Assembly: GCA_016290175.1 (NCBI GenBank)
Contig: JAEETD010000005.1
Location: 1-64,000 of the forward strand
Direction of reading: 5' to 3'
From: Prevotella sp.
GTDB taxonomy: Bacteria > Bacteroidota > Bacteroidia > Bacteroidales > Bacteroidaceae
DNA length: 64,000 bases
In this document: positions 5,630 to 36,391 of the stretch, piece by piece
Layout: each line of letters opens with the position of its first letter
How positions within the stretch are numbered: the stretch's first letter is position 1
Program-made: the position numbers and the translations under genes
Notes under the pieces: model-generated
What the model was told of the DNA's origin: nothing
Database searches by the model: none
The model's input: only the letters and a program-made list of their open reading frames with translations

Positions 5630-6238
5630 TTATGACTGGGCGCGGAAGGTGATGTCTTTGCGGATCTTGGAGAGCATCTGCGGGGTGATGCAGAGGAATG
5701 AGGAGATGGCATTGAGGGGAAGATGCTCCACGATGCCAGGACAGCGGTGGAGCAGCAGTTCGTAACGCTCGCGGGCCGTCGCGCGGTGGAAGTCGAGGTA
5801 ACGGGCACGAGCCTGACTCAGCAGATGCTCAGCAATAATAGCGCGCAGTTCCATCATCTCCATGTTCTGACGGAAAAGGTTCATCAATTGTTCGCCGCTG
5901 ACTTGGAACACACGGCTGGGCAGCATCGCCTCTATCGTGGTCTGCGACGGACGCCCGTCGAGGCAACTGGGATAGTCGCCCACAAACTCACCCTCAAATG
6001 AGAACCAGGTGATATGCTCGCGGCTATCGCTAAGACCGCGCGTCACATATTTGAAGCAACCCTCGGCCACGAAGCCAAACCACTGCGACGGCTCACCCTC
6101 GCGCTCCACCTGCTCGTCTTTGCGGTACACCACCATCCTACCCTCCTGCTCGCAGAAATCACGAAGCTCCTGAAGGTCAATACTGTTTATTCCGAATTTC
6201 TGTTCCATATCTTGGCTGCAAAGATACAGTATAAACAA
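5630..6238 (-). CDS. Crp/Fnr family transcriptional regulator
   Basis: cNMP-binding-like N-terminus and C-terminal ISSFLCITPQMLSKIRKD HTH. Confidence 0.85.
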   Translation of the reverse strand: MFILYLCSQDMEQKFGINSIDLQELRDFCEQEGRMVVYRKDEQVEREGEPSQWFGFVAEGCFKYVTRGLSDSREHITWFSFEGEFVGDYPSCLDGRPSQTTIEAMLPSRVFQVSGEQLMNLFRQNMEMMELRAIIAEHLLSQARARYLDFHRATARERYELLLHRCPGIVEHLPLNAISSFLCITPQMLSKIRKDITFRAQS

Positions 6239-11548: not shown

Positions 11549-11585
11549 CTTTTTACCTTTTTACTTTTTTACCTTTTTACTTTCT
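11549..11585. repeat. 8-bp degenerate array (minus strand GTAAAAAGGTAAAAAAGTAAAAAGGTAAAAA) upstream of murF-alr
   Basis: (CTTTTTAC)n pattern adjacent to the start codon; same motif at 19120-19148. Confidence 0.8.
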
Positions 11586-12420
11586 ATAGTGCAAAGTTAG
11601 GATATTTTTCCGATAACGCTGCTACTTTTAACATTGTTTTATTCATCAGGGCCTTGTAGTCCTCGGAATCGGGGTCAAAGGGTTTGTGGTTCAGCACGGC
11701 CTTCAAGGGCGCCCATTCCTTGAGGAAGGTCTTGGCCTCATCGCTCAGGTAGACCTCGGAGAGGCGTTGCCAGATATACTCCACCGCCTGATCGGAGGGA
11801 TGCAGCATATCTGCCTGATAGAAGCGGTAGTCGCGCAGCTCATCGTTGACGATCTCATAGGCGGGGAAATAACTCGCACCCGACACCTGACGAGTGGCGA
11901 GGAGCAATGTGGCCTTTGAGAGCTGGGAGCCGTGATAGCCGTATTTGCGATAGCGGATAGGGCTCACGGTGAGCACGATGCGCATATCAGGATTCAGCTG
12001 ATGGAGGAGGTCGATGGCCTTCGTCAGATAGTCTGCACAGGCATCGACGGAGAGTTCTTCCTCGGTGAAAAGCGACTGCGGGCGCTTCTGGCAATTGTCG
12101 ACAATCTCGCCCGTCTCCTTCAAGCGATAGACGTGATTCGTGCCAAGGGTCAGGAAAGTGAAACAGGGGGACGGTTCTTTTGTTACACCGGCCGATGTAA
12201 CAAAAGAACCGTCCCCCTGTATCACCAGGCGCTGGATAGTGTGGAGGATGGAGGCGGGATTGTACATCACACCAAAGGGATTGACCACCGCCTGGAACTT
12301 CTCTTCCTGAAAGCGGCGTCCGATGCTGTCGGCGAAACAGGAGCCCACGAAAAGCATCCTTTCGCAAGGGCCGATCCTAAACCCCGGATCAGGAATATCC
12401 ACTATCGTCCGAAACTCCAC
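11584..12420 (-). CDS. GSCFA domain protein carrying an internal palindromic insertion
   Basis: FVGSCFADSIGRRFQEEKFQAVVNPFGVMYNPASI and TLGTNHVYRLKETGEIVDNCQKRP; GTG start. Confidence 0.85.
   Translation of the reverse strand: MEFRTIVDIPDPGFRIGPCERMLFVGSCFADSIGRRFQEEKFQAVVNPFGVMYNPASILHTIQRLVIQGDGSFVTSAGVTKEPSPCFTFLTLGTNHVYRLKETGEIVDNCQKRPQSLFTEEELSVDACADYLTKAIDLLHQLNPDMRIVLTVSPIRYRKYGYHGSQLSKATLLLATRQVSGASYFPAYEIVNDELRDYRFYQADMLHPSDQAVEYIWQRLSEVYLSDEAKTFLKEWAPLKAVLNHKPFDPDSEDYKALMNKTMLKVAALSEKYPNFAL
12163..12220. repeat. 58-nt palindrome inside the GSCFA CDS
   Basis: ACAGGGGGACGGTTCTTTTGTTACA-C-CGGCCG-A-TGTAACAAAAGAACCGTCCCCCTGT, one mismatched pair. Confidence 0.95.
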
Positions 12421-12456: not shown

Positions 12457-15027
12457 GCTTCTGCTGATTTGCAATCCTGTTGTAGACAACGACATCTCTA
12501 CGAAACGGGCATTCTTATTCTGACGATGCTCTCCCAGAATCTGCTTGATACGGGCCGCAGCCTCGGGATCCTTGGCAATCATATAGAGATAGCCGCCACC
12601 ACCAGCACCTGGCAGTTTATAGCCCAGACTGAGATCGTCGATCAGACTGGTGAGCACAGCCACCTGTGGCGGATTAGTGCCACTGTCGAGCATCTGATTC
12701 TGATGCCAGGTCTTCCTGACGAGCTGTCCCATCTGCACAAAGTCGTTATGCTGGATGGCCTCGTACATCTCCATTGTATGCGCTTTCATCTCACGCAGCA
12801 TGATCAGTTCGTCATGATGGTTGAGGAACATCCTGCGCACGATTTCGGCAAGAATGCTCTTCGCCGTTCGGGTGATGCCCGTATAGTATAACAGATGACA
12901 GGCGCGGTATTCCGGCTGTGTCCATAAGTCGTTCGGCAACCATCGCACCTGAGGGCTCTGGTCGAATCCCCTACCCGTCTGCAGCAGCTTCACGCCACCC
13001 AGCACGCCTCCAAACTGATCCTGCCAACCGCCTCCTGTGGTGAGCATCTGCTCCAGCATCAGCGTACGACGGCCTATCTCGTTCTTATCCCAGCCCAGAC
13101 CACAGAAATCATTCAGCGCTCCCAGCACCGTAGAGGCCAGGATGCTCGATGTACCCAGTCCGCTGCCGGCTGGAATGGCAGAGAGGAGCGTGAGCTCGAT
13201 GCCAGAGCCGAAGGCCTCAAGTTGAGAGTGGAGAGTTCTAAACTCTAAACTTTTTCCGAAGCCCGCAAGGACGAGGGCGGCCTTGGGGATAGAGAACGGC
13301 GAGCCAACGTGCATGAAGTCCATGAGTTGTTCGTTTGTTTCTATCACCTCCATCGCACCGAGGTCGATGCTGCGCAGCACGATGCGGGGTTCCTTCGACG
13401 GACGGACGTATGCCTGCAAGGGCGGCTGACCATTGAGCTCGATGGCGAAGTTGATTACATTACCTCCCTCCATCAGACAATAGGGCGGTGTATCTGTCCA
13501 TCCGCCAGCAATGTCGATACGAACGGGCGAACGTCCCCACACGATCTGGTCGTCGGCCACACAGAGTGACGGCTGCTGCTGATCGGCAACAGCATCATTA
13601 CAAAGCCCCTCACGCAAGAGAGCAAAAGCCTTCTCGCTGTCACCGAGGAACATCGCATTATGGATACGTGTCATCAGCGGAGCATCTTCTCCGAGAGGCT
13701 CTGGCAAGGGTATCTGCTCTTTCCCGAACGCCTCAGCAGCATCGGCGAGGTCGAGCTGATAGAACACGCTGTGCCGCCAATTCCTGGCCAAAGCGAGCCA
13801 ATTCTCCTTACGATACTTCCGACGCTGCTCAAACAAACGCTTCAGGTTTGCCCGCTCAGCCACTTCATTGCTGTTCAGAGGTTCATCGATACGATAGCGG
13901 CGCACCTCATAGTCGCTCTCACCCACAGGCACCACGTCGATGCAGTCGCCTGGCTCAAGAATGATCTCCCAGTCGTTCTCAGGCACACCTGTTATCACAT
14001 GGTCGTGCGTCAGATGCCAACGAGGGCCAATATAGCTGTTCTCCACCCAGACATTCGTATTCTCCTCCGTAAACGGAATCTTCATCACGGAATTCTGCAC
14101 GAAGATCGAGGGATGGGGTTTGCGGTCGATATGCATGATCTCACGTTGGTCGTTCACAAGATTCTGCAGACGCAACGTAGAGGAAATCATCTCACGCGAT
14201 GTGCCGAAATGATAGAACTCGCCCCCAGCCAACGGCAGGATGGCCACCTTCAGGGCGGATATCTCATCATCGGGCTTCGAGGGGTCAGTGCCCAAGGCAC
14301 AGCCGAACTCGGAATAAAGATCATATTCCTTGAAATCATCCGGAGTACTCGGAATATTCGGATTACTCTGGCTCCTCTTCATCAGCAGTTCAATGGCCTT
14401 ATCGCTGAGCAGCCACACACCGATATCCGTCAGATAGAAATGATCTTTCTGCAGCTCAGCAAGTGTCTGTACCGATGGTTTCTGGAGCATCTGCTTCAGC
14501 ACCGTCGGTGTACGGCGATCGCTGACGAACACCCCATGATTCTTTGCCACCGAGGCATCGAGCCAGAGGCCATAGCACACCACATCAGCATCAGGGATAG
14601 GCTGAAGGGGTTGGGTAGCGCGGATAAGCACATCGCCACTCACCACCATCGTATGCAGACGTTCCGGCGCAGCCGCCATCATCTTCTCGTACAACGGCAA
14701 CTGCACACTCATCAGATCCTGTGAGAGTTTCTGTCCCCGTTCCCAGCGGAATACGGGCAACGGCATCAGCACCTTGCCAGAAACGGCATAGCTGGGCAGA
14801 CGCTTGCTCTGTCCGCCAGCATGAATCAGGATACGCTTCTCTTTTGCAAGCCACGCTTCAAACGCCTGACTCCCGACTCCTGACTCCTGACTCCTATACG
14901 CCTCCTGCAAGAGCCAGGCTGTACCGCCACCACTGCCGAGACGGTGGCCGACGGGATCGCACGTACAGAAATACTCCTCACGGCTGAGTCCCGTCACTTC
15001 ATGAAAGCTCCCCACCAGGTTCGGGGG
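12454..15027 (-). CDS. fkp: bifunctional L-fucokinase / L-fucose-1-P guanylyltransferase
   Basis: IHAGGQSKRLPSYAVSGKVLMPLPVFR (pyrophosphorylase) and GGWTDTPPYCLMEGG, AIPAGSGLGTSSILAST (GHMP kinase); start at MKKLLSLPP inferred. Confidence 0.9.
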   Translation of the reverse strand, partial: PPNLVGSFHEVTGLSREEYFCTCDPVGHRLGSGGGTAWLLQEAYRSQESGVGSQAFEAWLAKEKRILIHAGGQSKRLPSYAVSGKVLMPLPVFRWERGQKLSQDLMSVQLPLYEKMMAAAPERLHTMVVSGDVLIRATQPLQPIPDADVVCYGLWLDASVAKNHGVFVSDRRTPTVLKQMLQKPSVQTLAELQKDHFYLTDIGVWLLSDKAIELLMKRSQSNPNIPSTPDDFKEYDLYSEFGCALGTDPSKPDDEISALKVAILPLAGGEFYHFGTSREMISSTLRLQNLVNDQREIMHIDRKPHPSIFVQNSVMKIPFTEENTNVWVENSYIGPRWHLTHDHVITGVPENDWEIILEPGDCIDVVPVGESDYEVRRYRIDEPLNSNEVAERANLKRLFEQRRKYRKENWLALARNWRHSVFYQLDLADAAEAFGKEQIPLPEPLGEDAPLMTRIHNAMFLGDSEKAFALLREGLCNDAVADQQQPSLCVADDQIVWGRSPVRIDIAGGWTDTPPYCLMEGGNVINFAIELNGQPPLQAYVRPSKEPRIVLRSIDLGAMEVIETNEQLMDFMHVGSPFSIPKAALVLAGFGKSLEFRTLHSQLEAFGSGIELTLLSAIPAGSGLGTSSILASTVLGALNDFCGLGWDKNEIGRRTLMLEQMLTTGGGWQDQFGGVLGGVKLLQTGRGFDQSPQVRWLPNDLWTQPEYRACHLLYYTGITRTAKSILAEIVRRMFLNHHDELIMLREMKAHTMEMYEAIQHNDFVQMGQLVRKTWHQNQMLDSGTNPPQVAVLTSLIDDLSLGYKLPGAGGGGYLYMIAKDPEAAARIKQILGEHRQNKNARFVEMSLSTTGLQISRS
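14865..14899. repeat. intragenic heptamer array in fkp, CCTGACT/CCCGACT/CCTGACT/CCTGACT/CCTATAC
   Basis: Five 7-mers encoding the linker RSQESGVGSQA. Confidence 0.85.
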
Positions 15028-35469: not shown

Positions 35470-35502
35470 ATGTCACATCGGGGTCAGGATACTTTGTGAC
35501 AT
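35470..35502. repeat. REP element, left flank of RAYT
   Basis: ATGTCACATCGGGGTCAGGATACTTTGTGACAT. Confidence 0.9.
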
Positions 35503-36290
35503 TATGCTCTCCTAATAATAGAAAACCCGACTCCTGTCATCCGCTCCAATTGCCTGATACTTGCTCCAAAATCCTTGGCGGATCTTAGTATTTCTTCGCG
35601 ACGGTCTTTGCTGAGCAACAGGATATCGGCAGGAGTTCTAAGCCCGTAAGTATCCAATAGATATTCCCTTACCTCGTCATCGCTAGCAAAACAATTGCTT
35701 TTGTCGTAATCGAGGATGCGAACACTCTTTGCCAAAGGCTCATTCACCAATCCCCGCAGTTCATCCAGCGTCATCCGTTTCAGAACATGCCGTGTTTTGC
35801 AGATAGATTCACATACCATCTGCAGACTCTCGTATTCCCTCCAGCTACTCCAAGGATAGCTTATCACATCTTTCGACAACCCTGCTGCCATAGGATTCTG
35901 GTGAATATATCTAAGAAGGGTGAAGAAATAAGCTGCATCGTTGACGGGTTCGCTTTTGAATCTGTCCTGAAATAAATGTCCGCATCGCTCATGCTTCTTA
36001 TTGAAATAGAGTGCGTATGCGGCTGAGATGCGCTTGACGACAGACGACAAGTCTTCAGATTCTTCCTTGATAAGAAGATGGACGTGGTTTGGCATAAGAC
36101 AATATGCATAAAACGAACAACGGGGCGGCTGTGGACAATTCAACTCGTCTTTCGGATTTGCAAACTGTCCGAGCAATTCCTGGAATCTTGAGTAATCACT
36201 TGGCTGCTCGAAGATAATCTGATGATTCACGCCTCTCATCATGACGTGATAAATACCTGTTTCACTTTTGGTTCTGAGTGTTCTTGCCAT
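35502..36290 (-). mobile_element. REP-associated tyrosine transposase (RAYT, IS200-like Y1_Tnp)
   Basis: GIYHVMMRGVNHQIIF, YCLMPNHVHLLIKEE (HUH), RYIHQNPMAAGL (catalytic Tyr region), C-terminal DnaA-like HTH; flanked by inverted REPs. Confidence 0.9.
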
Positions 36291-36391
36291 ATTATTATAT
36301 TTTTTGATTAACTGCTGCAAAGGTATAAAAATATTGTGAATCAGCCAAACAATTCACGCAAAAACTAATCTCAAAAGCCTAAAAAAATAGA

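Follow-up and report, generated by a model that had tools for sequence, protein, structure and literature searches.

A REPIN family located mostly inside conserved genes of a Prevotella group, with a probable cognate RAYT

REPs are usually treated as extragenic. In REPINs, as described together with their RAYTs by Bertels and Rainey in 2011 (PMC3116915), two inverted REPs and a spacer form a long hairpin, compensatory changes are known, and a cognate RAYT lies near the same REPs; the REPs of P. fluorescens are almost wholly extragenic, where the commonest 16-mers occur 1,067 times and overlap genes in 14 cases (PMC3116915). Palindromes have also been described within genes. In the accessible sections of Di Nocera et al. 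2013 (PMC3733652), Rickettsia palindromic elements (RPEs) are in-frame palindromes in conserved genes and are translated as extra residues; RPE-4 and RPE-6 are treated there as CGTC-tagged REPs, and intragenic GTAG/CGTC REPs, both monomers and dimers, encode 20 to 30 residues in several species (e.g., O. terrae and R. conorii). The paper makes no mention of Prevotella. The coding palindromes of Nematomorpha mitochondria, according to the accessible part of PMC6649704, are likewise long inverted repeats within protein-coding genes. Among REP transposases, TnpAREP subclass 2.6 is found mostly in Bacteroidetes, carries NH[LIV]H and YIH[QN]NP motifs, and has atypical flanking structures (PMC6006769).

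Here, we report that a palindrome in a Prevotella GSCFA-family gene is one copy of a REPIN family in the sense of PMC3116915. Unlike the REPs of P. fluorescens, paired copies of this family in the Prevotella group lie mostly inside genes and in frame. In-frame palindromic repeats are already known from RPEs and intragenic REP dimers. The likeness drawn to RPEs is one of behavior, not of membership: RPEs, as presented in the accessible sections of PMC3733652, belong to another phylum and have another core, whereas the Prevotella family has an identifiable RAYT. A population with its majority in genes, frame-matched arms, and decayed remnants in orthologues were not found in those sections. The Nematomorpha palindromes differ in being mitochondrial, in not being known as REPs, and, in the accessible part of PMC6649704, in having no linkage to a transposase. 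In the open-access literature, with most subscription papers outside the search, we found no description of in-gene REPINs of Prevotella or Bacteroidota.

The window, that is, the whole 64-kb stretch of DNA analyzed, contains the following features:

12158 to 12225, no strand: REPIN, a near-perfect palindrome of 68 nt composed of two inverted REP units, with one mismatched pair, GTGAAACAG / CTGTATCAC
12158 to 12187, plus strand: first REP arm, GTGAAACAGGGGGACGGTTCTTTTGTTACA, with core GGGGACGGTTCTTTTGT at 12167 to 12183
12196 to 12225, minus strand: second REP arm, in inverted orientation (minus-strand sequence GTGATACAGGGGGACGGTTCTTTTGTTACA), with core at 12200 to 12216, minus
11584 to 12420, minus strand: host gene of the element, a GSCFA-family member of 278 aa with a GTG start (PF08885, E = 5.7e-66)
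12160 to 12225, minus strand: element-encoded codons 66 to 87, VIQGDGSFVTSAGVTKEPSPC, forming the loop that connects helix 55-67 to strand 87-92
35502 to 36320, minus strand: window RAYT (Y1_Tnp; PF01797, E = 4.4e-12)

The full palindrome, GTGAAACAGGGGGACGGTTCTTTTGTTACACCGGCCGATGTAACAAAAGAACCGTCCCCCTGTATCAC, has a partly palindromic center, and its two inverted REPs, separated by a short spacer, form a single hairpin, with a predicted RNA folding energy of -55 kcal/mol (z = -11.8). The general architecture of the unit is a REP of the TGTAACA-GGGGGACGGTTCTTT-TGTTACA type, doubled in inverted orientation. A preliminary description of this DNA had placed an inverted repeat here in an open reading frame. 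The repeat is present at that place and the frame is open, but the extent, given as 58 nt (12163 to 12220), is 68 nt. The core word was found twice in the window, compared with 0.09 expected from shuffled windows. A de novo scan revealed no second palindrome of the same class in the 64 kb; over the window and other stretches of the same genome (215 kb in total), the scan recovered the REPIN family and very little else comparably strong.

The GSCFA gene is present in 55 of 60 related genomes, and the peptide read through the hairpin, by predicted translation, spans VIQGDGSFVTSAGVTK. In an AlphaFold2 model, mean pLDDT is 89.8 overall and 53 in residues 71 to 80; the insert is modeled as a low-confidence hairpin leading from helix to strand on an otherwise confident predicted fold. 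The preliminary description took the palindrome to have replaced ∼45 residues and a WHSFLHH-like stretch to be missing because of it, and proposed an alignment to homologues. Longer GSCFA proteins (∼330 aa) do exist, but only among homologues that belong to other families in the order, and their matches break at query residues 66 to 87. However, all 29 of the 29 aligned homologues from the same genus, although they do not contain this palindrome, are equally short here (a loop of ∼7 to 23 residues from NPAS(I/V)xHT to the LTLGTNH strand), and the whole genus is without the WHSFLHH-like stretch. The closest orthologue (G113, 89 to 90% identical) is shorter still than the window protein, with an 8-residue loop, and relative to it the insertion adds ∼16 aa. 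The genus alignment rules out the replacement of a 45-residue block.

A search for further copies, also proposed in the preliminary description, found 20 exact occurrences of the 17-nt core (11 forward and 9 reverse) in the 3.03-Mb genome that contains the window (G000), compared with 0 for a reversed-pattern control, and 35 occurrences at ≤2 mismatches. Eleven paired copies are dispersed over G000, a modest number, on contigs C4, C6, C18, C33, C38 (two), C47, C55, C80, C90, and C146, which holds the window. Single REPs with TGTAACA...TGTTACA ends also occur, and those examined sit outside genes. The G000 assembly is fragmented (83% complete) and contig C47 begins at a copy, features that might arouse suspicion of an assembly artefact or chimera, the outcome that the preliminary description named as fatal to its reading. 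Given copies on many contigs and in-frame copies in the independently assembled G018, G113, G142, and other genomes, some at identical codons, a chimera is so improbable that we treat it as ruled out. A palindrome of the form GGGACGGTTCTTTTGT...ACAAAAGAACCGTCCC is common to Bacillota, Bacteroidota, and some Actinomycetota (L162 to L280); it is mostly intergenic, and its stem ends are lineage specific (TGGGACA, GATGACA, AGACA, and others).

The stop codon of a RAYT gene on contig C38 lies inside a REPIN of the GSCFA-palindrome family, and a second REPIN follows ∼900 bases further. The contig ends within the 5′ part of this gene, leaving only the 3′ flank visible; the gene's closest homologue in another species (G142, 75.5% identity) has both flanks and carries the same REP upstream and downstream. 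From the position of this stop codon within a REPIN, together with the presence of the same REP on either side of the homologue, we conclude that the C38 RAYT is very probably the cognate enzyme of the family. This association, observed in two species, bears out the earlier comparison of the hairpin to REPs that accompany IS200-like/RAYT elements. Other RAYTs in these genomes bear other repeats.

The PF01797 bit scores of the C38 and window RAYTs are 39.1 and 46.6, above the cut-off of 23. The Prevotella RAYTs have the motifs of the RAYT/Y1_Tnp group, NHVH (HuH) and YIHQNP (tyrosine region), which agree with subclass 2.6, an assignment made by motif only; neither Prevotella elements nor intragenic copies appear in PMC6006769. 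The window RAYT has another REP-like repeat, TGTCACAAAGTATCC / GGATACTTTGTGACA, on each of its flanks; it is therefore disfavored as mobilizer of the GSCFA palindrome and is probably not its mover. A copy of the TGTCACAAAGTATCC / GGATACTTTGTGACA repeat is also present at positions 5921 to 5963 of L071.

Among the matches listed, the Prevotella group has 38 paired copies, of which 34 are intragenic, compared with 17 of 112 elsewhere (3/22 in other Bacteroidales and 14/90 at the remaining loci, mainly in Bacillota); the direction of the contrast is clear, and its P value of 1e-16 is nominal, because the groups were sampled differently, loci were assigned to them by hand from the name of the organism and the type of arm, and some sites recur in related species. 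All copies were called intragenic when an open frame of ≥170 aa spanned the element, and calls outside the Prevotella group were made from open frames alone. Some quirks of scoring (the window copy was scored on a longer frame of the opposite strand, a copy that flanks a RAYT was included among the intragenic ones, and the C47 copy, which lies at a contig start, was left uncounted despite its open frame) do not change the result.

The host genes, checked by Pfam and orthologues, encode GSCFA, MntP, DUF3109, a relative of the PG_1098-type THUMP-like methyltransferase, biotin ligase (BirA), radical SAM/SPASM, RluA-type pseudouridine synthase, RsmF, 5-FTHF cyclo-ligase, and HAD hydrolase proteins, as well as a P-type ATPase with two copies. 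As with RPEs, the palindromes are in frame and the host proteins tolerate them. The C4 copy lies in a large protein that has no Pfam match at 1e-5 and that, by reading, we take to be a sugar hydrolase. Two REPINs are found at separate sites of one gene, both in frame, in the G142 P-type ATPase (L093) and in Prevotella RGIG5155 (L229).

A second REPIN in G000, GGGGACAGGTACCTGTC, is linked to a RAYT on contig C157 and lies in frame in ∼8 genes on contigs C49, C26, C94, C105, C157, and C160 (L292 to L321). Its hosts include PAP2, GH2, a sodium:solute symporter, an NDP-sugar epimerase, an ABC transporter, and DUF3987, among others, and it encodes SDRGQVPV..ADRYLSPVR. In the epimerase (L307), three REP units stand in tandem, in frame. 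The existence of this second family indicates that in-gene REPINs are a trait of the genome, not of one repeat. Against the usual view of REPs, the Prevotella group has two independent families, with two RAYTs, that lie mostly in conserved genes. In annotation, peptides such as QGDGSFVTS..VTKEPSPC and SDRGQVPV..ADRYLSPVR should be read as repeats, not domains.

We hold with considerable confidence that the GSCFA element is a REPIN spread by a cognate RAYT encoded elsewhere that landed in frame in the GSCFA loop and is translated as a surface loop. A RAYT (REP-associated tyrosine, Y1/HuH, transposase) of the C38 type would disperse the nonautonomous REP doublet; a copy would land in the GSCFA loop codons, its reading frame and its arm variant both being stop-free; and the host gene would survive with the element translated in vivo as a surface loop. 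Neither a transposition event nor an excision was read among the sequences examined. Ribosomal bypassing of the hairpin is disfavored: it would require neither frame-preserving inserts nor stop-free loop codons, and both are seen.

The arms depend on the frame. Arm subtypes encode IQGDGSFVT..DVTKEPSPCI and VTGGRFFCD..DVTKEPSPCYT, and in the QGDGSFV frame the canonical outer TGTAACAG would place TAA before CAG. Among the matches listed, in counts read by hand from the location survey, the outer TGTAACA is found in 0 of 22 QGDGSFV-frame copies, in which the codon is ATA, ACA, TCA, or AAA and never TAA, compared with 9 of 10 copies in the VT(G/E)GRFFC frame (Fisher P = 3.6e-7). Where the outer codon is altered, the opposite arm bears the complementary change; the outer nine arm positions pair in 94% of cells, with a shuffled mean of 73% and maximum of 80%. 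Survival of the gene would by itself purge TAA from the QGDGSFV frame, but it leaves the matching second arm unexplained. G000, G113, and G142 all carry the element in MntP, at identical codons, and the arms of these copies differ only at two positions, each changed on both arms. Each arm thereby acquires amino acid replacements, so the arms are evolving as a palindrome and not as a protein. G020 and G018 are without the MntP element, although their GSCFA identity to G000 at least equals that of G142, so that vertical inheritance may not by itself account for the MntP insertion. Complementarity would probably be kept by templated correction between the arms (quasi-palindrome repair) or by gene conversion with other copies. 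A contrast in intact stems (perfect REP stems, 3/33 versus 36/111, P = 0.007) is suggestive only.

A narrower version of the explanation above, rather than its opposite, is that the RAYT draws on a pool of arm variants and inserts them at any site, and that only stop-free, in-frame loop insertions survive, the element itself not being adapted to coding; we put this at slightly under an even chance. Because bacterial genomes consist largely of genes, random hits would be mostly genic; survival needs stop-free frames, and the single REPs outside genes have intact TGTAACA ends. Yet the same core is mostly intergenic in other phyla and other Bacteroidales, at the 17/112 given above among the matches listed, so purging there must be stronger, and complementary, frame-specific arms would require that matched variants already existed in a pool or that the arms were corrected once inserted. 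More tentatively, and in our judgment doubtful, the REPIN lineage could have adapted to genes, with frame-specific arm subtypes spreading as ready-made, loop-encoding cassettes and arm-to-arm copying keeping each palindromic. If so, transposable hairpins would steadily supply rumen Prevotella with new protein loops.

The arms could also be kept perfect by selection, if the element acted at the RNA or DNA level within these genes, for example as an mRNA hairpin, in translational pausing, or in mRNA stability. The predicted stability of the hairpin and arms that outconserve flanking codons in several orthologous pairs (e.g., 95% versus 65 to 71% in L150/L200) are what such selection would leave; however, the hosts are functionally unrelated, orthologues manage with short loops and no hairpin, and recent insertion or gene conversion explains the conserved arms as well. 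We find this reading unlikely.

In carriers, almost the entire loop consists of the element. At precisely the element sites, the orthologues from the nearest genomes have loops that are short and differ in length. By hand count, the loop gain relative to orthologues is ∼33 to 57 nt in six genes and ∼0 in the methyltransferase-like protein, less than the 68- to 71-nt element; thus, a simple clean insertion is not seen, and either host codons were lost or ancestral loops differed. A clean insertion of exactly 68 to 71 nt is unsupported by these loop lengths. Orthologous loops hold shorter, center-deleted or decayed palindromes in DUF3109 of G025 (ACAGGGGGACTGTTCGTCCCCTTGT) and BirA of G020 (ACAGAGGGACGATACGTCCCTTTGT), and further remnant loops are found in the methyltransferase-like and C4-type proteins of G113. 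With such remnants, the sites are not pristine empty ones, so insertion with deletion is likewise no more than a possibility. A palindrome was detected at P < 0.05 in 13 of 53 loops, relative to windows elsewhere in the same gene.

In-frame REPIN copies may thus later decay or lose their center in frame, giving loops of varied length, and our best reading is a cycle in which a copy inserts, its arms are kept matched, and, within a loop that tolerates it, it then undergoes such decay or central deletion. Sites common to several species and decayed remnants make this life cycle directly testable. The system offers a natural experiment in how a mobile palindrome becomes protein sequence, how hosts tolerate it, and how a palindrome is kept up under frame constraint.

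Other palindromic repeats occur in relatives in the methyltransferase-like loop (L111 of G034, L117 of G007) and the BirA loop (L141 of G007); they are of the TTCCCACGGTGGGAA type, the CCGCACGGAGCGG type, and a single AAGAACCGTCCC REP. The loops that hold REPINs look as if they were repeat hot spots. Simple repeats of the kind CTCTCAACTCTCCACTCT are also found in frame in loops, in GSCFA (L037), in RsmF (L086), and at ∼13220 to 13255 of the window, where they read as LSTLHSQLSTI, NSQFSILNSQF, and SLEFRTLHSQLE, another type of repeat turned into loop sequence.
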